Below, piece after piece: positions 4,785-53,999 of a DNA stretch of 64,000 bases. The stretch covers positions 15,587,759 to 15,651,758 of the forward strand of contig NC_083596.1 of NCBI RefSeq assembly GCF_027579695.1. Direction: 5' to 3'. Positions within the stretch are counted from its first letter, which is position 1. Each line of letters begins with the position of its first letter. The notes below the pieces were generated by a model. That model had not been told where the DNA came from, ran no database searches, and saw nothing but the letters and a program-made list of their open reading frames with translations. The stretch comes from Neoarius graeffei (taxonomy: Eukaryota; Chordata; Actinopteri; Siluriformes; Ariidae). A program made the position numbers and the translations under genes.

Positions 4785-5417
4785 ATTTTGTGCGCACAAG
4801 ATAAACAAAATGCACAAGATAGTAACTTGTGGGCACAAGATAAATAACTTGTGCACAAGACAATAAGTTGTGAGCTCAAAATAACTTGTGAGTACAAGAT
4901 AAATAACTTTTGTGCACAAGATAAGTAACTTTTGGGGACAAGATAAATAACTTGTACACAAGACAATAACTTGTGGGCACAAGATAAATAACCTGGGGGC
5001 ACAAGATATGTATGCAGTACATATGAGGTACATAACTTGTGAGCACAAGATAAATAACTTGTGGACAAGATAATAACTTGTGAGTACAAGATAAATAACT
5101 TTTGTGCACAAGATAAGTAACTTTTGGGGACAAGATAAATAACTTGGGGACAAGATAAATAATTTGTACACAAGACAAAACTTGTGGGCACAAGATAAAT
5201 AACCTGAGGGCACAAGATATGTACGCAGTACGTATGCAGTACATAACTTGTGAGCACAAGATAAATAACTTGTGGACAAGATAATAACTTCTGTGCTTCT
5301 GTTCACAAGATAAATAACTTATACACAAGATGATAACTTATGAGTACAAGATAAATAACTTGTGCACAAGATAATAACATGTGGGCACAAGATAAATAAC
5401 TTGTACACAAGATAATA
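4785..5417. repeat. AACTTGTG/CACAAG minisatellite
   Basis: Roughly 20-bp units built from CACAAGATAAATAACTTGTG repeat about 30 times, with a longer higher-order unit (about 190 bp) visible because the block around 4900-5045 recurs around 5100-5250. Because the unit is partly self-complementary, the array can fold into many small hairpins. The array continues at 7015-7050 on the far side of a Tc1 insertion. Confidence 0.88.
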
Positions 5418-7014
5418 CAACCCTGATTCCAAAAAAGTTGGGACAAAGTACAAATTGTAAATAAAAACAGAATGCAATGATGTGGAAGTTTCAAAATTCC
5501 ATATTTTATTCAGAATAGAACATAGATGACATATCAAATGTTTAAATTGAGAAAATGTATCATTTAAAGAGAAAAATTAGGTGATTTTAAATTTCATGAC
5601 AACAACACATCTCAAAAAAGTTGGGACAAGGCCATGTTTACCACTGTGAGACATCCCCTTTTCTCTTTACAACAGTCTGTAAATGTCTGGGGACTGAGGA
5701 GACAAGTTGCTCAAGTTTAGGGATAGGAATGTTAACCCATTCTTGTCTAATGTAGGATTCTAGTTGCTCAACTGTCTTAGGTCTTTTTTGTCGTATCTTC
5801 CGTTTTATGATGCGCCAAATGTTTTCTACGGGTGAAAGATCTGGACTGCAGGCTGGCCAGTTCAGTACCCGGACCCTTCTTCTACGCAGCCATGATGCTG
5901 TAATTGATGCAGTATGTGGTTTGGCATTGTCATGTTGGAAAATGCAAGGTCTTCCCTGAAAGAGACGTCGTCTGGATGGGAGCATATGTTGCTCTAGAAC
6001 CTGGATATACCTTTCAGCATTGATGGTGTCTTTCCAGATGTGTAAGCTGCCCATGCCACACGCACTAATGCAACCCCATACCATCAGAAATGCAGGCTTC
6101 TGAAGTGAGCGCCGATAACAACTTGGGTCGTCCTTCTCCTCTTTAGTCCGAATGACACGGCGTCCCTGATTTCCATAAAGAACTTCAAATTTAGATTCTT
6201 CTGACTACAGAACAGTTTTCCACTTTGCCACAGTCCATTTTAAATGAGCCTTGGCCCAGAGAAGACGTCTGTGCTTCTGGATCATGTTTAGATGCGGCTT
6301 CTTCTTTGAACTATAGAGTTTTAGCTGGCAACGGCGGATGGCACGGTGAATTGTGTTCACAGATAATGTTCTCTGGAAATATTCCTGAGCCCATTTTGTG
6401 ATTTCCAATACAGAAGCATGCCTGTATGTGATGCAGTGCCGTCTAAGGGCCCGAAGATCACGGGCACCCAGTATGGTTTTCCGGCCTTGACCCTTATGCA
6501 CAGAGATTCTTCCAGATTCTCTGAATCTTTTGATGCACTGTAGATGATGATATGTTCAAACTCTTTGCAATTTTACACTGTCAGACTCCTTTCTGATATT
6601 GCTCCACTATTTGTCGGCACAGAATTAGGGGGATTGGTGATCCTCTTCCCATCTTTACTTCTGAGAGCCGCTGCCACTCCAAGATGCTCTTTTTATACCC
6701 AGTCATGTTAATGACCTATTGCCAATTGACCTAATGAGTTGCAATTTGGTCCTCCAGCTGTTCCTTTTTTGTACCTTTAACTTTTCCAGCCTCTTATTGC
6801 CCCTGTCCCAACTTTTTTGAGATGTGTTGCTGTCATGAAATTTCAAATGAGCCAATATTTGGCATGAAATTTCAAAATGTCTCACTTTCGACATTTGATA
6901 TGTTGTCTATGTTCTATTGTGAATACAATATCAGTTTTTGAGATTTGTAAATTATTGCATTCTGTTTTTATTTACAATTTGTACTTTGTCCCAACTTTTT
7001 TGGAATCGGGGTTC
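5418..7014 (-). mobile_element. Tc1/mariner-type transposon, copy 1 (defective)
   Basis: A 1.6-kb element inserted in the minisatellite. The outer ends are inverted copies (TTCCAAAAAAGTTGGGACAA near 5428 and its complement near 6990), and each arm holds a second inner copy (CTCAAAAAAGTTGGGACAAG near 5611 and its complement near 6805). This gives arms of about 215 bp of the IR/DR type. The left flank ends in TA; the right flank is TG, probably a mutated TA. The coding strand is minus. Confidence 0.92.
5638..6720 (-). pseudogene. Tc1-like DDE transposase, broken
   Basis: The C-terminal part (5638-6084) shows [18 protein letters not shown] and SPDLSPVENIW, the second D and the E of a DD34E transposase. 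The upstream part (6205-6501) contains the helix-turn-helix segment [16 protein letters not shown]. Compared with the copy at 19322-20395 it carries a TAG in place of the Trp codon of the WSDE motif (about 6205), a 3-bp insertion near 6117 and an 8-bp loss near 6536 that shifts the frame. It cannot encode an active enzyme. Confidence 0.9.
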
Positions 7015-11282: not shown

Positions 11283-14200
11283 GTGTGTTAACAGTGGGAG
11301 ACAGAAAACAACACAATAACAACACTACAGTTCCAACAGGCAACTATGTGAAGATTTGCAAATCGTAGAAACTCTGTATTTCAGTGAAAATAGTACAAAG
11401 GCAACATATCAGATGTTGAAACAGAAATTGTTATTGCTTTCTGAAAAATACACTACCGTCCAAAAGTTTGGGGTCACCCAGGCAATTTTGTGTTTTCCAT
11501 GAAAAGTCACACTTTTATTTCCCACCATAAGTTGTAAAATGAATAGAAAATATAGTCAAGACATTTTTCTGGCCATTTTGAGCATTTAATCGACCCCACA
11601 AATTAACGTGATGCTCCAGAAACTCAATCTGCTCAAAGGAAGGTCAGTTTTATAGCTTCTCTAAAGAGCTCAACTGTTTTCAGCTGTGCTAACATGATTG
11701 TACAAGGGTTTTCTAATCATCCATTAGCCTTCTGAGGCGATGAGCAAACACATTGTACCATTAGAACACTGGAGTGAGAGTTGCTGGAAATGGGCCTCTA
11801 CACACCTATGGAGATATTGCACCAAAAACCAGGCATTTGCAGCTAGAATAGTCATTTAGCACATTAGCAATGTATAGAGTGGATTTCTGATTAGTTTAAA
11901 GTGATCTTCATTGAAAAGAACAGTGCTTTTCTTTCAAAAATAAGGACATTTCAAAGTGACCCCAAACTTTTGAACGGTAGTGCATACAGTATGCTCATTT
12001 TGAACTGGATATCAGCAACACATTTCAAAAAAGTTGTTTACCACGGTGTTGCATCACCTCGACTTTTAACAACTGAGGAGACCAGTTGCTGTAGTTTTGA
12101 AAGAGAAATGTTGTCCCATTCTTGCCTGATATGAGCAATTCCAGCGTTACGGACGTGACACTTGAACTCAAAATGGCAACAAATGACCCAGTGCATGTTT
12201 TATTGTCTCCCAGTATTTAAACAGGTGTTGCATATTTTAAGGCTGTACCATACTGGAGAAGTGATAGAACAAGAACAATTCCCATAGTACATCTAGGGCA
12301 TGCCAGAAAACGCCAATAAAAGATGCGTTATGGACGTGACAGAAAAAGTATCACTTTTCTTGGGTGACTGTACATTTTTATCAAACTCTGTGAAATTGTA
12401 AACCTAATGTCGAAATGGAGATATCCGTTTGATAGAGGGGTCCAAGGTGAATATTAAAAAATCTTTGTTTAAAATATTTTGTATTTCATGCAGAGTTTCG
12501 GAAGGAAAAGTCAGCGTTATGGATGTGACGAAATTCCGTTATGGATGTGACGCGTCTGAAATAGACATGGCATATGTTTAGAAAATCAGCAATTTAACCA
12601 CCATAACCCTTTGAAAAACTCTCTAAATATCAGCTAAAACTATCAAAGTTCTTAAATAATATTTAGGATGGCTATTGTTTTGCTGTTTTGTGGATTTTAG
12701 CATACATTTCTGTGGCTTGTGGCAATAATATAGAATTGTACATGATCAAAGTTGATTTTAGCTTGGGGTTTTACATTATAAGAAAGAAAGACTGACAGTG
12801 ACACATTAGGTTGGTTACAAATTGGTTCAACTTATTCACATCTGTAAAATACAGGCCTAGGTGATATCTCTGGGAGTGGTTTTGATGTATTACATGTTGC
12901 TTTATTTTTGCATGGTGAGGTTGACATTTACATGGAATTGCCCATATACAATTTCAGATTCTCAACAGTTCTGGGTCTCATTTGTGATATTTTGTGCTTC
13001 GTAATGCACCAAGTGTTTTAAATGGGAGACAGGTCTGGACTGCAGGCAGGCCAGTTTAGCACCTGGACTCTCTTACTACAGAGCCATGTGCAGAAAGCGG
13101 TTTGGCATTGTCTTGCTGAAAGAAGGAAGGCCTTCCCTGAAAAAGATTTTGTCTGGATGGCAGCATGTTGCTCTGAAACGTGTATACATCATTCAGCATT
13201 AATGATGCCTTCCCAGATGTACAAGCTACCCATGTCATGTGCACTAATGCACTCTCGTACCATCATACATGATGGTTTTTGCATGTTCTCCCCGTGTCCG
13301 CGTGGGTTTCCTTCGGGTGCTCCGGTTTCCCCCACAGTCCAAAGACATGCAGGTTAGGTTAACTGATGACTCTAAATTGACCGTGAGTGTGAATGGTTGT
13401 CTGTGTCTGTGTGTCAGCCCTGTGATGACCTGGCGACTTGTCCAGGGTGTACCCCGCCTTTCGCCCATAGTCAGCTGGGATAGGCTCTAGCTTGCCTGCG
13501 ACCCTGTAGAACAGGATAAAGCGGCTACAGATAATGAGATTTCTACTTTTGATTTGTCAGACCTCAGGACAATTTTTCACTTCGCCTCAGTCCATTGTAA
13601 AAGAGCTCAGGCCCAGAGAAGGTGGTGGTGGTGTTTCTGGATATTGTTTAGATCTGGTTTTAACCTGCATTTGTGGATGCAGTAATGAACTGTTTTCACA
13701 GACGATGGTTTTCTGAAGTGTTTCTGAGCCCATACAGTGATTTCCACTACAGACATGTGTCTGCTTTTAATGCAGTGTCTCCTGAGGGCCTGAAGATCAC
13801 AGGCATCCAGTGTCAGTTTTCAGCCTTGTCTCTTGCATACAGAGATTTCTCCAGATTCTCTGAATCTTTTAATGATATTATGTACCATAGATGATGTGAT
13901 CCACAAATCCTTTACAATTTTATTTTGAGGAACGTTATTCTTAAATTGTTGCACTGTTTGCCCATGCGGTCTTTCACAGAGCAGTGAACCCCTCCCCATC
14001 TTTACTTCTGAGAGTCTCCGCCTCTCTGGGATGCTCTTTTAATTCCCAATCATGTTACTGACCTGTTGGCAATTAACCAAGCTAGTTTTGTTTAGCATTA
14101 CACAGCTTTTTCAGTTTTTTGTTGCCCCTGTCCCAACTATTCTGAAACATGTTGCTGACATCAAATTCAAAATGAGCATATATTTTTCAAAGTACAGTAA

Positions 14201-17200: not shown

Positions 17201-20200
17201 AAAATCATTTTTAAATTAATATTTTGTGTCAAATTATTGATGTCTTTAGCAAGAAGCCATATAATAAGCAGGATAATGTACAGCGAGCTGATCATTATTG
17301 CAAAATAAACCCCTTCAGGGTGAATCAAGACCCCTCTGCTTTGTGTCAGTGTCCTGCAGGGTGATGCAGGATCCATCCTTTATACCATTACATTATCCAT
17401 CCATCCTTTATCCCATTACATCTTCATCCATCCTTTATCCTATTACATCATCATCCATCCATCCTTTATCCCATTATTTATGGCTTTGTTGAATACTTGT
17501 ATCTGTATAACAGAACCTTGCTCTGAATAACGGACCCTTGCTATTGGCGGTCCTTCTATCCTTTATCCCATTACATATTCATTCATCCATTATCCTGTTA
17601 CGTTCTTAAGCCATCCATGCATTATCCCATTACTTATGATTGATTGATCAATCCATCCATCAGTCTATTTCATTACATATCATTCACTCATCTATGCAAA
17701 AATTGTATTTTTGTTTTTATTCTGTTCCCCCCCCAAACAAGTTGAGCACTTTTCCCTGATGCTGAAAGATCCAGATCAACCAGAAAATCCAAAGCTTTTG
17801 AGAGTGGCTATAGTCGGTGCTCCAAATGCAGGGAAATCGACATTGACCAACCAGCTCCTGGGCAAAAAGGTACAGTGTTTCTTAACCTTAGCTACTTCCT
17901 TGATGCAATAGTTTTTGTCAATTATGAAACATTTCTCATGTTTTGTCTCTTTAAAACAGCTGTTTGCAACCTCCCAGAAAGTGCATACCACGAGATCTCG
18001 TGCACTCGGGGTGATCACCGAGGATAATACTCAGATTGTAAGTCACTGTGGTGTTAAAAAAACAAAACAAAACCCCACACTTTCACAATTCATTCCTCTC
18101 AATCTTAAAAGTAAATAATTTTTTGTCTCTAATCCTTAACTAGAATATAATGACATTTCCAAGCTATGATCCCGTTTCACTGGAAAGACGCTTTACGGAG
18201 GAAACAAAACTGTATGATTTCTGTTGCACGTTTTCTTTAACGTCTTTAAGGTAAACTACTTGTTGTCTTTTTAAATATCAGATTGTGCTGGATACACCTG
18301 GCCTCACGACACCATCTCAAGCTAAAAGGTACATTTTAATGCTGGAAATTTTGAATTCGATCTGGAATAGTGTTGGTAGTGGAATTATTGGCACCCTTTT
18401 CTCTTGTGCTGAAAGCAAGATGATTATGAGGAAGGAGGAAGTGATTGATTTTTTTTTTCTGCGTGTGTATGTGTAAAACAGTCGGGTTTCCGTCGACTGA
18501 GAGCAAGTTTGAAAGTTTGTTTGCACTCGTTTTAAGTGTTCTTTCGAGATGCCAATCATAAAAGGTGTGTTTTTGAGAGAAAATGCTCTTATTTAGGAAA
18601 AGTTCTCATGAGAGTAATTTTATTAGCTCATCTGGCCGACGGGCAACGAACTTATGCCATCACGTGTCGTCCGGCGTCGTCCACATTTCACGAAAATCGC
18701 TTCTTCTGTCTCAATTCTTCACCGATTTTTATTCTTTTTGGCAGGAAGGTAGGTCTGCCTGGGGTGCATATACTGTACCCTCTACCCAAATTTGCATAAT
18801 TGCAATTAATAACGAAGACATGGAGTAATTAAGCCCTAACGAGCAGTTTCCACCCAAATCACTTCTTCTCCCTCAGTTCTTCACCGATTTTTATTCTTTT
18901 TGGCATGAAGGTAGGGGTACCTAGGGTGCATATGACTTCTACCCAGATTTGCTTAATTACAATTATTAATGAAGTTATGGACGAATTAAGCCTTAATGAG
19001 CAGTTCAACAAAAATCACTTCTCAGTCAATTCCTCACCGTTTTTGGATTCTTTCTGGCAAATAGGTCGGTATTCCTAGGGTGGATATCGCTTATATATAT
19101 ACAGCCCCAATTCCAAAAAAGTTGGGACAAAGTACAAATTGTAAATAAAAACGGAATGCAATGATGTGGAAGTTTCAAAATTCCATATTTTATTCAGAAT
19201 AGAACATAGATGACATATCAAATGTTTAAACTGAGAAAATGTATCATTTAAAGAGAAAAATTAGGCGATTTTAAATTTCATGACAACAACACATCTCAAA
19301 AAAGTTGGGACAAGGCCATGTTTACCACTGTGAGACATCCCCTTTTCTCTTTACAACAGTCTGTAAACGTCTGGGGACTGAGGAGACAAGTCGCTCAAGT
19401 TTAGGGATAGGAATGTTAACCCATTCTTGTCTAATGTAGGATTCTAGTCGCTCAACTGTCTTAGGTCTTTTTTGTCGTATCTTCCGTTTTATGATGCGCC
19501 AAATGTTTTCTATGGGTGAAAGATCTGGACTGCAGGCTGGCCAGTTCAGTACCCGGACCCTTCTTCTACGCAGCCATGATGCTGTAATTGATGCAGTATG
19601 TGGTTTGGCATTGTCATGTTGGAAAATGCAAGGTCTTCCCTGAAAGAGACGTCATCTGGATGGGAGCATATGTTGCTCTAGAACCTGGATATACCTTTCA
19701 GCATTGATGGTGTCTTTCCAGATGTGTAAGCTGCCCATGCCACACGCACTAATGCAACCCCATACCATCAGAGATGCAGGCTTCTGAACTGAGCGCTGAT
19801 AACTTGGGTCGTCCTTCTCCTCTTTAGTCCGAATGACACGGCGTCCCTGATTTCCATAAAGAACTTCAAATTTTGATTCGTCTGACCACAGAACAGTTTT
19901 CCACTTTGCCACAGTCCATTTTAAATGAGCCTTGGCCCAGAGAAGACGTCTGCGCTTCTGGATCATGTTTAGATACGGCTTCTTCTTTGAACTATAGAGT
20001 TTTAGCTGGCAACGGCGGATGGCACGGTGAATTGTGTTCACAGATAATGTTCTTTGGAAATATTCCTGAGCCCATTTTGTGATTTCCAATACAGAAGCAT
20101 GCCTGTATGTGATGCAGTGCCGTCTAAGGGCCCGAAGATCACGGGCACCCATTATGGTTTTCCGGCCTTGACCCTTACGCACAGAGATTCTTCCAGATTC

Positions 20201-23200
20201 TCTGAATCTTTTGATGATATTATGCACTGTAGATGATGATATGTTCAAACCCTTTGCAATTTTACACTGTCGAACTCCTTTCTGATATTGCTCCAGTATT
20301 TGTCGGCGCAGAATTAGGGGGATTGGTGATCGTCTTCCCATCTTTACTTCTGAGAGCCGCTGCCACTCCAAGATGCTCTTTTTATACCCAGTCATGTTAA
20401 TGACCTATTGCCAATTGACCTAATGAGTTGCAATTTGGTCCTCCAGCTGTTCCTTTTTTGTACCTTAAACTTTTCCAGCCTCTTATTGCCCCTGTCCCAA
20501 CTTTTTTGAGATGTGTTGCTGTCATGAAATTTCAAATGAGCCAATATTTGGCATGAAATTTCAAAATGTCTCACTTTCGACATTTGATATGTTGTCTATG
20601 TTCTATTGTGAATACAATATCAGTTTTTGAGATTTGTGAATTATTGCATTCCGTTTTTATTTACAATTTGTACTTTGTCCCAACTTTTTTGGAATCGGGG
20701 TTGTATATAATATAGCTTGTAGATCATGTATATAGTTTGCAACGTTTATTGAGCAAGGTGGCCCACTTTAGATCGTTCCTTCTGGACTAGACGGGGCCCG
20801 AGTGAGCTACGCCGTTATTGATGGTCTTGTTGTGAGTAATTGGACATGTAAACATCGTGTGTGATTTTTATTCTGGTTCCTAGTTATACCTTAATGGAAA
20901 AATTGTTTTCTTGAACGGGATTGCATTAATAACTCCCCCGTCTAATTTCTGTTGTTTACAGACATCAGCTGGAAAAGACTTTTCTTGTGGATCCGCTGAG
21001 ATCATTACGACAGGCGGATCTCGGTAACGTTTACTCCAAATTCTACGAATGTTGTAAAGTCATTTTATGTTTTCCCACCCGGGAATCTCTTCAGGACAGA
21101 GTGTTTTGCAGTTTCTTAGTGGCATGACAAGCTGTGTTTTATTTTTTGTCTTATTAACTTGAAGAGAAAAAACCAGAAGACGTAAACATAACTATAAACT
21201 GACTGAAAGAAGTACAGGATAACGTAATGTTCATTCATGTTGAATGAATAAAAACAAATTGTCATTGTTGAAAAATCACTGTGGTATAAAAGGAATACAA
21301 TGCTTATTCGAGGAAAATAATGCACTTCGGGACGATAATAGCAGCTCAGCTTTGTGTCGGCTGCATCGCACCACTCCGCTGTTGATGATTTTCCTATCCC
21401 AGCATGCACCCGAGTGTTGTACACAGATACTGCTATGATCTTGAAAAAAAATGTGTGGAAACAGATTTTTAGGTTTCTTCAGGTGACATTTAAAGTGCTT
21501 CTGAAATGGCATACGATCGTCACAAGAACAGTCTGTTCCATAAATAGTCCAGAGTCCATTCACAGCATTTCTCATTTCCAATGATCTTAAATAGACCATT
21601 GCCAGATGTATCATAAATAATGATTTTTTTTTTCCCCCTGCTTCAATGTGCAGTGGTGGTGTTGGTGGACGTCTCAGACAAGTGGACTCGCGGTAGGATG
21701 GACTTTGAGGTGCTGAAGTGTCTGGCCATGAACGCACACATTCCTGCTGTCCTCGTCCTCAATAAGGTAACCTCATTAATGCGGCTGGCTCACTGTTCCA
21801 GTTTAGAATTTGTTCATATATAAATATACCGAACGCCACTGATGGGTTTTTCCCAAATGTATTGAGACAACCTTAAGGAAAGGAGGTTTGATATGAACTT
21901 ATAGTGAATAAGAGTCCTGGGATGAGCACAGGGCAGTGTTTAGGATCACAGCAACAGTCCTGAGGTAGAAGTCGACAGGATCCTGGATGAAACAGAGCAT
22001 CAGGAAGAAGTGAATCTTGTCACTATAAAAACCAGTCGTTGTTTATCTTGTGTTTTGTTTTCTTATATTATGTTTTATGTTGGGCGGCACGGTGGTGTAG
22101 TGGTTAGCGCTGTCGCCTCACAGCAAGAAGGTCCGGGTTCGAGCCCCGTGGCCGGCGAGGGCCTTTCTGTGCGGAGTTTGCATGTTCTCCCCGTGTCCGC
22201 GTGGGTTTCCTCCGGGTGCTCCGGTTTCCCCCACAGTCCAAAGACATGCAGGTTAGGTTAACTGGTGACTCTAAATTGACCGTAGGTGTGAATGTGAGTG
22301 TGAATGGTTGTCTGTGTCTATGTGTCAGCCCTGTGATGACCTGGCGACTTGTCCAGGGTGTACCCCGCCTTTCGCCCGTAGTCAGCTGGGATAGGCTCCA
22401 GCTTGCCTGCGACCCTGTAGAAGGATAAAGCGGCTAGAGATAATGAGATGAGATGAGAGATGTTTTATGTTTTGTTATCCCCCGCTGGCTGAAAAGCCCG
22501 AAGAGGGATTATGTGGTGGTGATGTCTGTCTGTCCATCCGTCTGTCCTGGGAAGGGTACTCACCTTCTGAAATCAACTCCTCTCATAATTTTTGGAGGAA
22601 TTTCACCAAACTTGACAGGATTCTTTGTTATATGTCGGTAGTATGCATACTGCAATTTCGTTAAATTGGGTCACATTTTACCAGAGTTACAGCCCTTGAT
22701 TAACAAAATTATACTTTGACAATTTCATGAAGGCGTGCTCACCTTCTGACATCAACTCCTCTCAATATTTTTGGACGAATTTCTCGAAGCTTGGCAAAAG
22801 GCCTTGTTATATGACGGTAATACGCATGTTGCGATTTAATTTAGTTTGTGAAAATTTTGCCAGAGTTTTGACCCTTGATTCAATAACTTGTACTTTGACA
22901 ATTTCATGAGGGTGTACATTCTTCTGAAATCAACTCCTCTTACAATTTGTGGAGGAATTTCACCAAACTTGGTAAAAGGCTTTGTTATATGACAGTTATA
23001 CCCATATTGAAATTTTGTTTAATTTGGGCACATTTCACCAGAGTTATACCCTTGATTATTAACAACCTTGTACTTTGGCAATTTCATCAAGGTGTGCTCG
23101 CTTTCTGAAATCAACTTCCCTCGCAATTTTTATTATCCCCCTCTGGCCGAAAGGCCCGAAGGGGGTTTATGTCGTGGCGATGTCCGTCCCAGGAAGGGTG

Positions 23201-24032
23201 CTCACCTTCTGAAATCAACTCCTCTCTCAATTTTTGGAGGAATTTCACAAAACTTGGCAGGATTCTTTGTTATACACTACCGTTCAAAAGTTTGGGGTCA
23301 CCCAGGCAATTTTGTGTTTTCCATGAAAAGTCACACTTTTATTTCCCACCATAAGTTGTAAAATGAATAGAAAATATAGTCAAGACATTTTTCTGGCCAT
23401 TTTGAGCATTTAATCGACCCCACAAATGTGATGTTCCAGAAACTCAATCTGCTCAAAGGAAGGTCAGTTTTATAGCTTCTCTAAAGAGCTCAACTGTTTT
23501 CAGCTGTGCTAACATGATTGTACAAGGGTTTTCTAATCATCCATTAGCCTTCTGAGGCAATGAGCAAACACATTGTACCATTAGAACACTGGAGTGAGAG
23601 TTGCTGGAAATGGGCCTCTATACACCTATGGAGATATTGCACCAAAAACCACACATTTGCAGCTAGAGTAGTCATTTACCACATTAGCAATGTATAGAGT
23701 GGATTTCTGATTAGTTTAAAGTGTTGATGACACGTTTTTGACATCTTTGGCGATGTTTTATAACATAAAAAGTAATTCCCGATGATCCATATATTAATTC
23801 ACGAAGGCGCCTATTTTACAAGTTATGATAAAAAAACGCAGCTATTTGGGCAAATTTGACGGGGCTGCAGCACCCAGGAGACGAAGGAGGAGGAGGAGCT
23901 ATATGACGTCAGCGAAAGAACCTTCCTCCTAACTTACCAGTTTGTTGTTGATGCGACAGGTGTTCAGTTTATCATTATTAGTATTTTTATTATACATTAT
24001 TATACATTTTTTTTATATATATATATAAAATT

Positions 24033-24094
<62 letters not shown>

Positions 24095-27000
24095 GTTATT
24101 ATGCCTTCGCGTTCTGTTGCCGGCTTTTGCTCCAAAACCCACAAGGATGGGGTAAGTTTATTCAAGTTTCCCAGAGATCCCGAGCTGCATGCGAAGTGGG
24201 TGAAGCAAGTCAGGCGCACTCGTGACAAGTGGGAGCCCTCACCAACATCCGTCCTGTGCTCTGAACACTTCGATTTGGATTGTTTTGACACCCTTCCCAG
24301 CTTAAAAGAATCTCTTGGGTGTTCAGTTCAGCACAAACGTGTGTTACTACCATCAGCAGTGCCTACACAGTGTTGCCAGATTGGGAGGTTTCCTGCCCAG
24401 TTGGGTGGTTTCAAGTGCATTTTGGTGGGTTTTGAACATATTTTGGGCTGGAAAACTTCAGCAGTATCTGGCAACAGCGGGCGGGAAACCTCCCAATCTG
24501 GCAACACTGCCAGTATTCCGGAGGGGGTCTACTAGTAGCTATGCCGGATCCAAAGACAGTCCTCCTGTCAGAATGTGTTGTGAAACGACATAAGATAAAG
24601 GTACGTAGCGCTATAGATTCTACATGATAATCATAAATGTAATCATAAAGTCAGCGTGATATCAGTCATGTATTTGCTTGTGAAAGCTTGCGGCTTTCAT
24701 GTAACTGCCGCCTAGCAACGAGAGGCAAAGGGTAAAGAGGGTAGGCTATCATAGATTCTATTCGGAAGAGATCAACACAATTCTAGACTCCCAGAAGAGG
24801 AAGAGCTAGCACTAGAGAGTTCACCGGCGTTTTCATGCGCCATTTCCATTGAGTAGAACCAGAGTAGAACAGCCAGTGAACCGCAGCGTGTTCTCCCGCT
24901 GACGTCACAACATGGCCGCGAGCCACGGACCCAGTTTTCTTGTGCTGTGCAATTAAAAGTTGGATATTCGCGTAACAACAGCTTCTTTTCACGTAATTAT
25001 AACAGAAATCTAACATGTTTACCATGTTGTATAGTTTATTTAAGAAATTGCATAGAGTCATGTTCGTGTCATCAGCACTTTAAAGTGATCTTCATTGAAA
25101 AGAACAGTGCTTTTCTTTCAAAAATAAGGAACTTTCAAAGGGACCCCAAACTTTTGAACGGTAGTGTATGTCGGGAATATGCATATTTCAATTTCGTTCA
25201 ATTCAGTCACATTTTACCAGAGTTATGGCACAGTTGCCAACGGGGGATATTGTGCTCTCAGAACACTCTTGTGTTTTGTTGTGTTTTTTGTGTTTTGTTT
25301 TATTATGTTTTGTTTTATGTTATCTTATGTTTTCTAATATGTTTTATGTTTTCTTGTGTTGTTTTGTTTTATATATTATGTTTTGGTGTGTTTTATGTTT
25401 TTTACGTTATATTTTTCTTATTTATTTATTTAAAATATTTATTGCTTTTTGTTTTATGTTGCGTTGTGTTATGTTATGTTTGGGCATGTCTCACACACAT
25501 CCAGGTGGACCTCCTAAAGAGCAAACCCTTGCTGCTGGACATCACTGCAGAACTGACCGAGGGCATCGTGAACGGCAAGAGGCTGAAAGTGCGCAGTTTA
25601 GTGAAGCCGCTCCGAAAGGAAACGCAGGAGAAGCAAACGGAAAATACTTCAGATTTGCAGAACGGAGAAGCGCGAATGCCAAATCCAGACACTGGGCTTC
25701 TGCGAGGCCTGAGCAGAGAGCAGCTGAGGGCCCTGAAGAGCCGTAAGGGATGGCCACACTTCAAGGACGTGTTCATGATGTGCGCTACAGACAGCGAGGA
25801 CGTGCAGACGCTGAAGGTAGACAACAACACGTACTTGACCTGGCTCACATGATCGTGTAAAATATTTTTCAAGAACTCTTATCTGGGACCTTGAAGGACA
25901 ACTGACTGTAAATAACCTGATCATAATAATCGATAATAATTTGAGGATTTAGGATGATCAGATTATTCAGCACATGTATGCTGTTAATCGGATTTCGTGA
26001 TGCTGTATCTGTGTATATAGGAGAAAAATTGAATTAAAAGATTGGCAGCTTGAAAAGGAACAATAGAATGATTAGTAGTACGTGTGTTTATCAGCACGAC
26101 TCCACTATTTAATTAGATTGTGTTTATACGAGTCTGAGTACTGCTTCTTACGTCTGCTTGATGTAAGAAAGAGCAATGCGACCACATCACTACTGGAGGA
26201 TGGAATCAAACAAAGAGCTGCACTACTTGTGAAGGTATTACTAAAATAAATCCCATAAGTGGCTCATGTATAGCCAGACTGTTTCCTCTTTATCACACCG
26301 CCCAAATTATTCCCATACTCCCCCCCCCCCCCCCCCCTTTTTTATTTTTATTTTTGTGTGTGTGTCTCATCCATCATCTGATCTGGGACCAGCAACAACC
26401 CGTTCCAGAAGGCGCCAGCATTTACAGCACCCAATATCATCAGAGGAAATACTTTATTTCCTTATCATTCATGCAGAAATAATACCAACGATAAAAAACA
26501 GACTCCCTTTATGCGGCTTCTCCACTTCTCTGGGCTCTTACGAAGTGTGGAGAACGACTTGATACCCAATGATTGTTGTTTTATGTATAAAATATATAAC
26601 GCCAATGTGAATATATATAAAGGCTATTACACGGTTGCACAAAGATATGAAGTTTATCTTCGAGTGGTGAACATATTCATGAATGAGTGAAAATATTTTC
26701 AACACGAGAAGAGGAGAAAACCCTGGGAGTGACATCATTGGAGTGAAATATCGGGAATTATTATACATACAGGACGCTTTTCGATGAGATAAAAACGTGT
26801 GTTCTATTCCCTTCTAGCAGGTTTCATTCATTTGGTTTGATAACATGCAATATTGTTAGCACATCGCTTATCCTACGTGTATTATGTCACTCTACCCAAT
26901 GGAGAATGTTGTCAAGACAACACGACGTCACACGTCGGAGATGTAAAACTTCCGTGCTAGCGAGCAACTGTGACAGTTTGTAAATAAACATGGCCGCCTG

Positions 27001-30000
27001 GTTTGCGTCGTTAAATACGGAAGATTTTGAGAGAATTTTGGCTGCCAGGTTGTTCTGTTGTTGATTTTAAAAGTAAATTATATCTGGAAATGAATACTTA
27101 GATATGAGTGAAAAATACTGTGGTGAGCGTGCGTGGAAGAAGAGCCTGGAGACAGAAATCTTAGTTTCTCGGTCATTAGCCTGTGCTAGTAGTTCTCGGT
27201 AGCACTGGCTTGACTGCGCTTGCATTGGCCTTCGCTAACACTATTGCTGAACGCTACACCGGCTGGAAGGTGACTTCACTGCCGCACTAACAGCACCGAG
27301 TCATGGGTGAGCTAGTGTTGGCCTTCGAGAATGCTGATATGAAGAGAGTTTGTATGTATAATAATAATAATAATAATATTGGCTGGCTTTTTTTGTGGTA
27401 TATCAGATATATTCCATTCAGCTAGCATGATATTGAACGAATCGAAGACGAGTAGACCACTCAACACCAGCTAATACTATTATCCCCCGCTGGCTGCAAT
27501 GTCTGTCTGCCATCCGTCCGTCCCAGGAAGGGTACTCGCCTTCTGAAGTCAACTCCTCTCTCAATTTTTGGAGGAATTTCATGAAACCTGACAGGATTCT
27601 TTATGTGTCGGTAATACGCATATTGTAATTTCGTTAAATTGGGTCACATTTTACCAGAGTTACAGCCCTTGATTAACAAAATTATACTTTGTCAATTTCA
27701 TGAGTGTGTTTTCCTTCTGAAATCAACAACTCTCACAATTTTTGGAGGAATTTCACGAAACTTGGCAAAAGGCATTGTTGTATGTCGGTAATGCGCATAT
27801 TGTTATTTTGATCAATTCGGTCGCATTTGACCAGAGTTACAGCCCTTGATTAACAACCTTATACTATCACAATTTCATGAAGGTGTGCTCGCCTTCTGAC
27901 ATCAACTCCTCTCACAATTTTTGGACGGCTTTCTCGAAGCTTGGCAAAAGGCCTTGTTATATGATGGTAATACGCATATTGCGATTTAATTTAGTTTGTG
28001 AAAATTTTACCAGAGTTTTGACCCTTGATTCAATAACTTGGACAATTTCATGAGGGTGTACGTTCTTCTGAAATCAACTCCTCTCACAGTTTGTGGAGGA
28101 ATTTCACCAAACTTGGTAAAAGACTTTGTTATATGACCGTTATATGCATATTGAAATTTCGTTTAATTTGGGCAAATTTCACCAGAGTTATGCCCTTGAT
28201 TATTAACAACCTTGTACTTTGGCAATTTCATCAAGGTGTGCTTGCTTTCTGAACTCAACTTCCCTCACAATTTTTGGAGGAGTGTCATGTAATTTGGCAA
28301 AAAGTTTTTGTCCCCCGCTGGCTAAAAGGACCAAAGGGGATTATGTCGTGGCGATGTCCGTCCGTCCCGGGAAGGGTACTCACCTTCTGAAATCAACTCC
28401 TCTCACAATTTTTGGAGGAATTTCATGAAACTTGACAGGATTCTTTGTTGTACGTCCGTAATACACATATTGCAATTTTGTTCAATTCAGTCGCATTTTA
28501 CCAGAGTTATGACAGAGTTGCCAGCGGGGGATGTTGTGCTCTCAGAGCACTCTTGTTTAAATATGTTACTCAGATCCGCGATGCATTTCGTATGAAAATG
28601 CGAGTTTTTCAACACGAAAAGATAAACTTCATATCTTCAAGCAAATGTCTGCCCCCCCAAACGAGTGACACAGAGATTTGTGTCATGGTTTTGGTTCTTC
28701 ATGTCCCAGATGTGCGTCCAATGAACAGTACAAGTGGCGTATTTCCCAGTAAAGCACTCGTGTCCATATAATATATGTGCTTATGTGGCTTTATAACTTT
28801 ATAAATGATTAAATTAAATTAGATTAGATTCACTTTATTCATCCCACATCGGGGAAATTCACATGTTACAGTAGCAAGAAAATGTCAAACAGATAACAAA
28901 TAAAACTGAAATAAAAATTAGACAAACGAAGGATTAAATATAAAGGGCTATTTGCATTATCTACCGTGAAAAAATATAGAAAAATTGCCTTATTGAGAGG
29001 CTTGGAAAATTGCACATTACAGGTAGACTCTGTGTATATACACACATACACATATATATATAAAATAAGTATGCATAAAAATAATTTATAGACTGGTACC
29101 AAAATTCAAAAAAGTCCTTATTTAAGGAGTTAAAGGCATTTTTGAGACAAAGTCGGCAAACAGTCTTATTTTGTCAATTTGGGTGTGCCGAATTCAAATC
29201 TGCAATACGCCGAGCTCTATCTGACCTCTGTTGACCTCTAGAGGTCATTGAACTTTGGGCCTGTAAACGTCTCAGCTGAACCCAGTTTCTCAGCTTTCTA
29301 AGGAATGAAATGTACTAAAATGATTAATGAAGTTAGCAAATGGCCTTGTTTGTGAAATGTTTGGGTGCTGAATTCATTTTTCATTTGTAAAACGACATAT
29401 GACCTCTGATAACCTCAGGGTCATTAAACTTGGCCTATAGGCCTATGCGTTTAACGGCATTTTTAAACTGACTTTACTCCCCCAAAAAGAATATGAACAG
29501 ACAAAAAACAAATAGAAAGGAACAAATACAACATTAAATGCCAGTCCATGTACATGTGACTTACTTTTCACAATGAGAATGCCTCGGCGATCACCTTACA
29601 TAACATTGCATTACATTTAGCGGTTATTGTTTATACAAAGCTACTGAAAAAAGGACAGATTCAGCAGCATACAAAATATGGGGGCATACAGGGTATACAG
29701 GTTCATCAGAGTTAGTGTATATGAGAGTTTTTTTTTCTTTGTTGTTTGTTTTTTGTAAAGGCTTTACCCCGTTTAAAACAAAACAAAAAAACAACAAAGA
29801 AAAAAACTCTCATATACACTAACCCTGATGAACCTGTATACCCTGTATGCCCCCATATTTTGTATGCTGCTGAATCGGTCCTTTTTTCAGTAGCTTTGTA
29901 TAAACAATAACCGCTAAATGTAATGCAATGTTATGTAAGGTGATCGCCGAGGCATTCTCATTGTGAAAAGTAAGTCACATGTACATGGACTGGCATTTAA

Positions 30001-30744
30001 TGTTGTATTTGTTCCTTTCTATTTGTTTTTTGTCTGTTCATATTCTTTTTGGGGGAGTAAAGCCAGTTTAAAAATGCCGTTAAATGCATAGGCCTATAGG
30101 CCAAGTTTAATGACCTTGAGGTTATCAGAGGTCGTATGTCGTTTTACAAATGAAAAATGAATTCAGCACCCAAACATTTAACAAACAAGGCCATTTGCTA
30201 ACTTCATTAATCATTTTAGTACATTTCATTCCTTAGAAAGCTGAGAAACTGGGTTCAGCTGAGACGTTTACAGGTCCAAAGTTCAATGACCTCTAGAGGT
30301 CAACAGAGGTCAGATAGAGCTCGGCATATTGCAGATTTGAATTCGGCACACCCAAATTGACAAAATAAGACTGTTTGCCGACTTTGTCTCAAAAATGCCT
30401 TTGGGTGTCACAATTCTGGATTTTGGTACCAGTCTATTAAGGCCTATATTATTGCACATAATAATTGCATCGATGAGAGATGGCGGAGGTAGATGCCTGC
30501 GGTATCTCTCCTTCTTACACCGTGGGTGTAGCAGTCTACTACTAAAAGGGCTGCTTAAAGCCCCCACAGCCTCATGTAGGGGGTGAGAGGGTGATGATGA
30601 TAATTTGTTTATTGTTAATCCCAAAATGATGATGCATTTCTTTGTGTTTTTATATTAAACATGTATCTTTTTTATTTCTAATTTTAAATTTCATGTTAGA
30701 ATGTTAATCAAAGAATATCACAGTATCCAGAAAAGTGTATTGTG

Positions 30745-30810
<66 letters not shown>

Positions 30811-33800
30811 TATCACAATGTCAATATTTTAGGGACGTATCATTCAACTCTGAATAAGAATGCGCTCATTAATTCAGTGGATTGGATTTGACAGAGTTAT
30901 CTGATGGTGGAGGCGAAGCCGGGTCCATGGCAGTACCACAGTACGGTACTCACAGATCAGAGCCCGGAGGACATCTGTACCAACACCATCCGAGAGAAAC
31001 TACTGGAGTATCTTCCTCAGGAAGTGCCTTACACAGTGACTCAGGTACAGCTCACGTGAGAAACACACCTACACTACCGTTCAAAAGTTTGGGGTCACCC
31101 AGACAATTTTGTGTTTTCCATGAAAAGTCGCACTTTTATTTACCACCATAAGTTGTAAAATGACTAGAAAATATAGTCAAGACATTTTTCTGGCCATTTT
31201 GAGCATTTAATCGACCCCACAAATTAATGTGATGCTCCAGAAACTCAATCTGCTCAAAGGAAGGTCAGTTTTATAGCTTCTCTAAAGAGCTCAACTGTTT
31301 TCAGCTGTGCTAACATGATTGTACAAGGGTTTTCTAATCATCCATTAGCCTTCTGAGGCAATGAGCAAACACATTGTACCATTAGAACACTGGAGTGAGA
31401 GTTGCTGGGACTGGGCCTCTATTGAGGTTTTTCACCTGACGTCACAGGGTCACGTGACACCCCGGTGTCTGCCATTTTGAAGGTCAAGCTAGCGAATGTC
31501 AACAACATAGTAGCTGGTATGTTACTGTAGCAATGTTTACGTTCAGTCATTTGGATGACTGTTAAAACCTTTCAGTCTCAAGTTTTTCCTTTACTGTATT
31601 TACTAATTTACTGTAATTATGATCCGGCAGCTATTTACACCGGATCCAGTGTAAATAGCTGCCGGAGCGCGCTGCTTAATTTGGCTTAATCCGGCTTGCT
31701 CCCGGAGTGCTCCGGCCAAGGTTCCGGAGCGCGCTCCGGCTTGCTCCCCCTCAAATTAAGCAGCGCGCTCCGGCTTGCTCCCGGAGTGCAAGCCGGAGCG
31801 CGCTGCTTAATTTGAGGGGGAGCAAGCCGGAGCGTGCTCCGGCAGCTATTTACACTGGATCCGGTGTAAATAGCTGCCGGATCATAATTACAGTAAACTA
31901 GTAAATACAGTAAAGGAAAAACTTGAGACTGAAAGGTTTTAACAGTCATCCAAATGACTGAATGTAAACATTGCTACAGTAACATACTAGCTACTATGTT
32001 GTTGACATTAGCTAGTGCTAACAGCTAGCTGCTAGTACACTGCTACAACACAGACACCGACCCTAATAATACAGTTCTTGGTCATTGCCTGGTAACAGCA
32101 AATTTATAACGGGCCATGTCTCAACAGACTAAGAAGTTATTTCAATGACATTTAATAACATTTTGTTTATCCTGAGGACCGAAAGTAAATGAAAATGTGA
32201 ACAAACCTTAGCTGTAATAAGATGGCGACCACCGGCTCCAGGGACGACCCGCTGATGTAGGCATGTTACCCAGCCTGACACAAAATATTTGTAGGCATCC
32301 AAACTCTTATACACTTTCAGATCAATACCTGTGTATGGCGATGGGTTTTTAACGACATAGGTATACAGATCATGTGGGCCGAAGTCAGGTAAAGACGAGG
32401 GCTTCGTGTACTTCCGTACGTCAGTGAACAATCCTGGTGGAAGCAGGTAAACATCGTTCTCTAAGCCTGCTAACCTCAATTTTTGCAAATACCTCTCCCT
32501 CTGCTCGCCCTGTAAATGCCCTACATCGCTGGATAGTGAAGGTGTTTTCTGCATCTCGCTCCTTTTTCTTTTATGTTTTTCGTTTGTCGCCTTCCTCGCA
32601 TTCAAACTGATTCGAGCCGTGACGTCCAAAATGGCAGCCTAACGATGCATCACATGACTTGGTCACGTGGGTGAAAAACCTCAATACACTTATGTAGATA
32701 TTGCACCAAAAACCAGACTGTAACACTTTTATCGAAGGGCGGAGCACAGAGGACGGCAGGACAGAGATCAGGTTTGGACACGGGTTTTATTGCCACACTT
32801 TTCAGTGAACAACTCGTACTTTACTCAGACAGACACACACACACGACCGGCGTCTGGTTCGGGGATGAGCTCCACTGCTCTACGCTCTCCCTCCTTAAGT
32901 AGGGCGCGGTCACTGGGAAGACACACACAAACACAGGTTAATTGACATCAGGTGTAGTGATTCTGCCACTTACCTTCCCTGACTCCGCCCTCCTGTCACA
33001 GACCGGCGCTTGACCACGCCCCCGCTGCCACATAGACATTTAGCTAGAATAGTCATTTACCACATTAGCAATGTATAGAGTGGATTTCTGATTAGTTTAA
33101 AGTGATCTTCATTGAAAAGAACAGCGCTTTTCTTTCAAAAATAAGGACATTTCAAAGTGACCCCAAACTTTTGAACGGTAGTATATACTGAGCCACTGTG
33201 TTTCTTCACTTCCTCTCGTCCTCTGCGATCTTTCTTTCCTCTGCTTTTAAAGCAATAAAGATGGCCTTCAACAGCAAAGCACGTTTTTTTCTCGACACTG
33301 AGCAATAGAAGTTTCTCATTGCTGGAATGATCTCTCCACTGTGTGTTTTGCAGCACGTTGAACTCTGGAGGGAAACAGCCGACGGCAATTTGGACATATG
33401 CGTCAAACTGCATGTGAAAAAAGAAAGCCATATGGTGAGAAACTCAATTCAATTCGATTCAAGCCATAGTTTCTATTCTCGGCCTGTACTGTTTGTATAG
33501 ATGCTTGAAAGTCTTTAAAAAAAAAAGTGTGAAAGTTTCAAGGTTTGAAATGCATTTAACTTTGAATAAACACCTGGAGAAAGGTTGCATTTTCCATTAA
33601 CATTCAACTCAACATTTGCTCGAACAGCAAAGTCTTTTATAGTGTCATATTTTCCTAACTAGATTTGCTCGTGTGTATCGTGTGCCCGCTTTACAAATTT
33701 CACAGCGTTTTCCTGATGGAGGAGGCTGTAATGTAAGCAGTCAGCCTCTTTAATTTAATCTGCACTCGATCCGAAGCTTATAGCAGGTGCCGTTCTATGA

Positions 33801-36800
33801 ATATCAAATAATTGCTTACTTTCTCGCGCCATTATTCCTGCCAGTTGGTATTAAATTGCCTACAATGGGACAGTTACACGGTCTGGGCATAAAAGCAAGG
33901 GCAGGACATCCAGAATGTAAAGTACTGTGCAAAAGTCTTCGGCACATGGAAAGAAATGCTGGAAACCAAAAATGGCTTAGAAATAATGAATGGCAATATT
34001 TGGTGTGAGACGACCCTTTGCTTAAAAAAAAAAAAAAAGAGTCTCAGGTACAGTGAGTGCAGTTTTATGCGGAAATGAGCTGTAGGTTTTACTGAGCGTC
34101 TTACAGAACCAGCCCCAGTTCTTCTGGACACTTTGACTGTCACACTCGCGTCTGTAGCCTTCATTCTGTTTTCTTTTTTCATCTGAAAAGTGCTCCCTTG
34201 TGTAATATGCTGCTGTATCATTATTATACCCCCCGCAAACAAAGTTTGGTGGGGTATACACAGGAATCACCCTGTCTATCCGTCCGTCTGTCTATGTGTC
34301 TTGTAAGTACAACTTAAACGGTTTGATGAATTTTGATGCAACTTTACAGCAGTTGCAGTATAGACCCTTTTCAGTCACGTGACCTTCGTAAACGCGACCG
34401 CCATTTTGGACATGTAGTGGACTTCGGCTCGAATCAGTTTGAATGTGAGGAAGGCGACAAACGAAAAACATAAAAGAAAAAGGAGCGAGATGCAGAAAAC
34501 ACCTTCACTATCCAGCGACGTAGGGCATTTACAGGGCGAGCAGAGGGAGAGGTATTTGCAAAAATTGAGGTTAGCAGGCTTAGAGAACGACGTTTACCTG
34601 CTTCCACCAGGATTGTTCACTGACGTACGGAAGTACACGAAGCCCTCGTCTTTACCTGACTTCGGCCCACATGATCTGTATACCTATGTCGTTAAAAACC
34701 CATCGCCATACACATGCACGCCAACGTCCGAGGTTCCGGAGCGCGCTCCGGCTTGCTCCAGGAGTGCTCCAGCTGAGGTTACGGAGCGCGCTCCGGCTTG
34801 CTCTGGAGCAAGCCGGAGCGCGCTGCTTAATTTGAGGGCAACCTCGGCCGGAGTGTGCTCCGGAATCTCGGCCGGAGCACTCCGGGAGCAAGCCGGCGCG
34901 CGCTGCTTAATTTGAGGGGAACCTCGGCCGGAGCACTCCGGGAGCAAGCCGGTGCGCGCTGCTTAATTTGAGGGAGAGCAAGCCGGTGCGCGCTGCTTAA
35001 TTTGAAGGGAACCTCGGCCGGAGCGCGCTGCTTAATTTGAGGGAGAGCAAGCCGGAGCGCGCTCCGGAACCTCGGACGTTGGCTCCGGCAGCTATTTGTA
35101 CTGGATCCGGTGTAAATAGCTGCCGGATCATAATTACAGTAAACTAGTAAATACAGTAAAAGGAAAAACTTGAGACTGAAAGGTTTTAACAGTCATCCAA
35201 ATGACTGAATGTAAACATTGCTACAGTAACATACCAGCTACTTGCTGACATTAGCTAGTCAACAATAGCTACTACAGAAGAACAAAGAGGTTACAATGGG
35301 TTATTTTAGCCTATTTGGTTACACACTCGCCGCCACAGAATGTTAACAGCAATGTAATGCCTTTTCTGGCTAATTTTATTCGTCTTACCTCCAACAAAGT
35401 GGTCACTACACAAGCGCTGGTATGCCGAGGGCTGCCAATCTGTTAATGGCCGCTATCCATCTTCTCCGTCGGGATCCGATAAAATGATAAACCTTGCCTT
35501 GTTTGTTGATGGTTACTACATCCAGGTGCACAACAATATAGTGGCATGATGGAAGTCTTGCTGAAAGTAAAAACTTTCTTTGCTGCCGTTCCTCAATGTT
35601 GGCTGTGGTAAACTACTGGTAGTACATGTCCAAAATAGCGGCCGCGTTTGTCTTGACGTCACGTGAAAAGGGTCCATACCACCTGAAGATGTGCATGAAG
35701 GAAAATAATCCCGAACTGAGGTCTTAAAGGAGGACTGAAGTCATTTTTAAACTTGCTTTATTTTTTAATTAACGTGTTATTCAATTACGTTTTCAGTTTT
35801 AGTAACCTTATATCGTGACTCGTATTGGCAATTAAATATTATACTTATCGGCCTGTTCGGTTTTTAGCCATGTTGAATTTAGTTCGTTTGGTCCACGGCA
35901 GGCGTCGCTTATCCGCGCGATCTTCACGAGACTTGTACGAGACTGCGAAACGTGAAGTGTCAGCCAGGTATCAGTGCCGCTATTTTGAAAACTGTTTTCT
36001 AAACGAAATATTGCACAAAAACGAGTTTAAATGATGATTACTGCCTACTTTTTTCAAACTTTCCTGATTGCTATCAAAACAAACAAAACTTCCGGCTTGA
36101 TTACATCAGCATTCGAAGGAGGGCGCGCATCTTTTGACAACGTTGGCAGATGTTGGTCACTTTGATTTCCGTTGTACGTTTTACTTCCGTCCTACGACGT
36201 CTCGCACAGGTCTCAACGAATCTCGTTTACAGCCATTGCTTCGACATATGGACTGATATATTACAGAGCATATTTCAAACACTCCTAACTTGCTATAGCA
36301 GTGACAAAATAGCGATCAAAAATGCATTCCGATATTTAATAAAATGAGAGAAATAGAATTTTTATAATAAATTTGCCTTCAGTTCTCCTTTAAAGATTCT
36401 TCTTTTCTTAAAGCCTCTGCATGCTCTTGCGACAAGGCTTTCGCAGATAGCTTTTCGCAGACAGTTGTAATTTATCGTTGAGCGGGGAGTAATCGGCGTG
36501 CGCAATGTTATTCATCGCCACAACGCAAGGGGGCGCGAAGTCGCGAAATCGCTAGGAGTAGTTGGTGGGTGTGGTTAATGGAGTGTTTATCCTCCGGTTA
36601 CTTATAATGACTAGAACTGGAGTCGTATAGATGTACGTACTTCCTCACTTCCTCGATCAACCGCTCTTCGTGCTGCTCCATCTTCGCTCGTGTTTTTAAA
36701 AATGGCGGTCGTGAAAACAAAACAAACCGGGAAAGTAGGGAAGCGGAAGTGCGTGTACAGCGGATGTAGAGTGGACCAATCGGAGCCCTCTTGTCTGCGA

Positions 36801-53247: not shown

Positions 53248-53434
53248 CACCCATGGACAATTTAGAGTAGCCAGTTAGCCTGGCCACATGTCTTTGGACT
53301 GTGGGGGAAACCCATGCGGACATGGGGAGAACATGCAAACTCCACACAGAAAGGCCCTCGTCGGCCACTGGACTCAAACCCAGAACCTTCTTGTTGTGAG
53401 GCGACAGCGCGAACCACTACACCAGTGTGCTGCC
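53248..53434 (-). mobile_element. Old SINE 5' half
   Basis: Recognisable tRNA head and central block of the window's SINE on the minus strand, with many substitutions and no tail. Clearly older than the other full-length copies. Confidence 0.75.
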
Positions 53435-53470
53435 AGAAGTCAATTTACATAACTGATAAACTTACACAGA

Positions 53471-53999
53471 GCGGCATGGTGGTGTAGTGGTTAGCACTGT
53501 CGCCTCGCATCAAGAAGGTTTTGGGCTCGAGCCCAGCAGCTGATGGCCGTTCTCCCCGTGTCTGCGTGGGTTTCCTCCGGGTGCTCCAGTTTCCTCCACA
53601 GTTCAAAAACATGCAGTTAGGTTAACATGGGGTGACCTTAGGCTGAAGGTTGGGCTGAAGTGCCCTTAAGCAAGGCACCTAACCCCCAACTGCTCCCTGG
53701 GTGCTATAGCATAACTGCCCATTGCTCTGGGTATGTGTGTGTGCTCATTGCTCACTTATGTGCACTTCTTCAGATGGGTTAAATGCAGAGGACGAATTTC
53801 ACTGTGCTTGAGTGTGCTTCCTCCCATTGGTCAAAAACGTGAAATTGCTGTATATGGGAATGTGTGTTCATGGTGCCCTGTGATGGACTGGTGTCCCACT
53901 TGGGGGTGCGGGTTCCCAGTGTTCCCAGGATAGGCTCTGGATCCACCATTACCCTAACCAGGATAAAGTGATTACTATGAATGAATGAATGAATGAATG
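53471..53999 (+). mobile_element. SINE of a different subfamily with (GAAT)n tail
   Basis: Same tRNA-like head (GCGGCATGGTGGTGTAGTGG) and shortened central block, but the 3' part differs: AAGGCACCTAACCCCCAACT, GTGATGGACTGGTGTCCCAC and a GAATGAATGAATGA tail. Related to the fragment at 3965-4215. Confidence 0.75.

Follow-up and report, generated by a model that had tools for sequence, protein, structure and literature searches.

What is the long near-palindrome that lies within an intron of the eral1 gene, and by what route did it come to be there? Self-comparison of the 64-kb stretch of Neoarius graeffei DNA analysed here (the window, used at its full length) places it at positions 29091-30434, 1,344 bp in all. 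We consider it probable that what lies here is a single copy of a fold-back DNA transposon of the non-autonomous type, given its matched ends, the short duplication of the target, the lack of coding capacity and wider flanks that do not mirror each other.

Architecture of the palindrome and its surroundings

The left arm (29132-29756, plus strand) becomes T-rich from about position 29727 and is followed by a loop of 21 nt (29757-29777) and by the right arm (29778-30402, minus strand), which is an inverted copy of the left. Read directly, the centre consists of a T-rich run and then an A-rich run. Each arm is 625 nt long and ungapped complementarity between them is 97%; when gaps are allowed, 613 of 627 alignment columns are identical (97.8%). 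This alignment bears out an earlier note on this DNA, made from the letters alone, which had described inverted arms of around 650 bp with few mismatches. The short loop claimed in the same note is also present, with a size of 21 rather than about 25 bases. With the T-rich centre excluded, the core of the arms (29132-29726) agrees at 586 of 595 positions (98.5%), and the nine differences are seven transitions and two transversions. All other differences, two indels of 2 nt and one substitution, are located in the T-rich centre. The longest uninterrupted duplex between the arms measures 185 bp. No longer inverted pair with a spacing of 3 kb or less occurs in the window, and chance cannot account for so long a match. 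Fold-back elements have long inverted arms, and here too the inverted repeats make up most of the element.

Stop-to-stop frames inside the palindrome measure only 35-72 amino acids, which supports the earlier claim that it has no coding frame, as far as long frames go; with nothing longer inside, the element would be non-autonomous. A minus-strand stretch of 114 amino acids (30313-30654) merely overlaps the right end. Each arm also contains a diverged direct repeat, the units of which, at 29150-29265 and 29330-29439 in the left arm (both plus strand), match at 66% over 116 columns with an offset of about 180 bp (E-value 9e-9). Their local score of 44 compares with at most 20 in 200 shuffles, and the repeat carries TGACCTC-like motifs. 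Tandem Repeats Finder, applied to 28800-30700, returned nine short, low-scoring rows, the 116-bp direct repeat not being among them. Further towards the centre, the stretch 29609-29645 (plus strand) is similar to what we take to be a repeat core common in fish. The score of 20 was reached by none of 1000 shuffled motifs, but the motif was picked after the likeness had been noticed, and this is a lead only. A 17-base part of the core is found with three mismatches in each arm, which was equalled by 4 of 100 shuffles; a 26-base form has no match at up to three mismatches, and a literature search for four forms of the motif gave no match.

The intron containing the palindrome spans 25817-30894 (plus strand, GT...AG, 5,078 bp). 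Its assignment to eral1, also proposed in the earlier note, according to which it would be intron 8, is confirmed by the bracketing exons: the upstream one matches human mitochondrial ERAL1 up to residue 320 (PDB chain 8csp_a, E-value 3.7e-9) and the downstream one (30895-31044, plus strand) matches from residue 321 (E-value 1.2e-20). The matches were obtained by a structure-sequence search and the intron bounds from splice signals; Pfam gave no match in either exon stretch. Between the end of the palindrome and the downstream exon are 460 bp. According to the earlier note, the palindrome would have split the 3' end of a LINE, with halves on both sides, and so have moved in as a unit. The left flank does resemble what is presumably a fish LINE, at its 3' end and in minus-strand orientation. 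Within the window, no informative second copy of either flank was found, a right-flank pattern had no match in viral contigs, and a literature search for flank and arm letters together was equally without match.

The neighbourhood is rich in other elements. Starting 26 bases past the last base of the downstream eral1 exon is a repeat copy (31070-31421) that also occurs at 11448-11903 and 23272-23723, the copies being about 97% identical. Another long structure of inverted repeats (31489-35259) begins about 1.1 kb downstream of the palindrome. Its first segment, 31489-32015, folds back on itself (82% over 560 columns), and parts of this segment recur at 34933-35259 (81-87%). Between these lies a 290-bp inverted pair (32330-32619 and 34425-34714, 99%), and the open frames holding it have no Pfam match. 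An interspersed repeat of about 376 bp, represented by 22083-22458, is present in 10 near-full-length copies in the 64 kb, the reference included, with 94-100% identity to the reference, plus six shorter matches. Fragments of it, in opposite orientations, overlap a self-complementary stretch at 53368-53536 (76% over 173 columns). An open frame at 24029-24532, starting in an AT-rich dinucleotide run, contains a THAP domain (E-value 1.1e-14) and is possibly transposon-derived.

Ends, target site and superfamily

Two inverted structures are nested in the palindrome, with a short terminal repeat on the outside and a longer inverted duplication within it. The outer terminal inverted repeats are located at 29091-29108 (plus strand) and 30417-30434 (minus strand), and 17 of the 18 bases of the first agree with the reverse complement of the second. 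Between these repeats and the arms are two blocks that are unlike each other, of 23 nt on the left (29109-29131, plus strand) and 14 nt on the right (30403-30416, minus strand).

As the earlier note had pointed out, TA is found directly outside both ends (29089-29090 and 30435-30436), where it forms a putative target-site duplication. If the element is instead read two bases longer at each end, as TAGACTGG...CCAGTCTA, it begins at 29089 and the duplicated bases are TTA (29086-29088 and 30437-30439). From the local composition, the chance of finding TA on both sides is about 1.3% and that of any two-base match about 8%; for TTA the corresponding value is about 0.13%. Both readings were made with the sequence already seen, and the TTA reading explains one coincidence more than the TA reading. 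A duplication of the kind expected of a fold-back transposon is present, two or three bases long. In AT-rich DNA, a short direct repeat is weak evidence of insertion by itself; the matched ends and the short duplication together suggest that the element was inserted as a unit. A weak mirror match continues for six AT-rich bases past the ends (27-nt pair, 89%), so the exact end of the palindrome is not fixed by the sequence. Further out, comparison of 28900-29090 with 30435-30600 showed no inverted match at an E-value of 1e-5.

A TA duplication would favour a transposase of the Tc1/mariner type, and so suggest that superfamily, while TTA would suggest PIF/Harbinger, which makes a three-base TWA duplication. 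Because TTA is also present, with a chance of about 2.6% for any three-base match, TA alone gives no support for Tc1/mariner over PIF/Harbinger. With palindromic or long-inverted-repeat non-autonomous elements of the Tc1/mariner type, the palindrome shares TA beside its ends, long inverted repeats and a lack of coding capacity; it differs from them in that TTA also fits and in that its ends are unlike those of two Tc1-like elements in the window. The latter (5412-7013 and 19095-20702) are 97% identical to each other; their terminal inverted repeats measure about 215-230 bp and are 82-83% identical, and the element at 19095-20702 carries a Tc3-type HTH domain. With PIF/Harbinger non-autonomous elements, the palindrome would share the TTA duplication if both its ends were extended by two bases, but the superfamily ends that we regard as typical are absent from it. 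Classification as a MITE was rejected, 1,344 bp standing against a usual length under about 600 bp. Elements of the P superfamily such as Galileo make longer target duplications than the two or three bases seen here.

Likenesses to described elements are of a more general kind. Mariner-like elements of aphids, as presented in PMC5490172, have a TA duplication, and one group has long terminal inverted repeats. For the Angel MITE of zebrafish, intrastrand pairing of a single strand is reported in PMC12628747; Angel is, like the element proposed here, non-autonomous and from a fish, a likeness of kind and by description only. Galileo of Drosophila is given as a fold-back transposon of the P superfamily in PMC4168063, and Galileo and Tetris, another Drosophila fold-back element, were likewise compared by description only.

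The window contains no second copy of the palindrome, with only matches of 15-23 bases at E-values of 0.03 or worse, and neither an autonomous partner sharing its ends nor an empty site was seen there. Two of three element patterns had no match in viral contigs, and the single match of the third, a 17-base pattern, was taken for chance; one element pattern had no match in prokaryote genomes. A fish element is not expected in either collection, and such scans may leave out near records, so that silence means little. At title level, the palindrome element was not named among the literature matches listed, and a search for the letters of its ends produced only matches unrelated by title.

Possible origins

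If the palindrome is a fold-back transposon, a transposase supplied in trans would recognise the short terminal inverted repeats, cut such an element out elsewhere and insert it into a target, TA or TTA, that would be duplicated in the process. The abrupt stop of the arm match inside the terminal repeats makes it probable that a shorter element gained its long arms through inverted duplication of its interior. This may have happened before or after arrival at eral1, the order of events being conjectural.

In the latter case, the palindrome would have formed in place, from a resident shorter transposon whose inner part was inversely duplicated by a hairpin-primed or template-switch event. We regard this as unlikely, albeit the best placed of the alternatives. 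It would account for the sharp limits of the arm match at 29132 and 30402, within the outer terminal repeats, and for the difference between the two subterminal blocks, as expected if just the inside was duplicated. However, the same anatomy is expected if an ancestor element was duplicated and then moved, and the 64-kb window offers no single-arm copy for comparison.

An artefact of assembly or library preparation, in which a read folded back on itself, is very improbable. Inverted chimeras are known from long-read libraries, but here the mirror symmetry ends at matched terminal repeats bordered by TA and does not extend to the wider flanks. Moreover, the arms differ at nine of the 595 core positions, mostly by transitions, and the outer blocks of the two sides are not alike. 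Just as improbable is the insertion of two separate copies of a repeat of about 650 bp head to head. The window is dense in repeats, so an encounter of this kind might be envisaged, but the outer ends form a single matched pair flanked by a short duplication, and the T-rich then A-rich centre has the opposite order to that of two meeting poly-A tails; a lone arm, which such an origin would call for, does not occur elsewhere in the 64 kb. A selected hairpin-RNA gene yielding small RNAs from the eral1 intron is the least likely of all. The uninterrupted duplex of 185 bp and the great strength of the fold speak for it, but a young fold-back element would fold alike, and Rfam gave no match at gathering thresholds over 28500-31500.

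Age, RNA folding and significance

Returning to the fold-back transposon, the divergence between the arms in the core is 1.5%; the copy, or the last correction of one arm by the other, therefore looks recent. The insertion itself looks recent if the arms were identical on arrival and have not been corrected since, and gene conversion between the arms would give it a younger appearance.

At the DNA level, long inverted repeats with little space between them are fragile, and they are a natural source of self double-stranded RNA. The computed RNA fold of the palindrome has an energy of -1,142 kcal/mol, compared with -304 to -322 kcal/mol for five mononucleotide shuffles, and 96% of its bases are paired. 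In computation, then, the RNA can fold into a long hairpin, as the earlier note had suggested, the perfect duplex of 185 bp included. If eral1 pre-mRNA is transcribed through the palindrome, the transcript would fold into a double-stranded RNA of about 600 bp. Splicing would discard this hairpin along with the intron, and it may undergo ADAR editing or Dicer cleavage; the near-complete predicted fold makes it a plausible substrate for either enzyme. According to PMC9989829, A-to-I editing in animals targets mainly double-stranded RNA from young repeats. The risk to genome stability is described in PMC7999016 as higher with longer and more similar arms and with shorter spacers.

A bolder proposal is that the palindrome belongs to a young fold-back lineage in which gene conversion keeps the arms near-identical, and that the eral1 copy steadily feeds double-stranded RNA of about 600 bp to ADAR or Dicer, thereby tuning eral1 output. 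We consider this a long shot. Long hairpin transposons are already known, and the palindrome is most likely a clean example of one, ordinary in kind though unusually long and young-looking. As an intact, young-looking hairpin in the intron of a housekeeping gene, it provides a clean vertebrate site at which ADAR editing, effects on splicing and hairpin stability can be studied.
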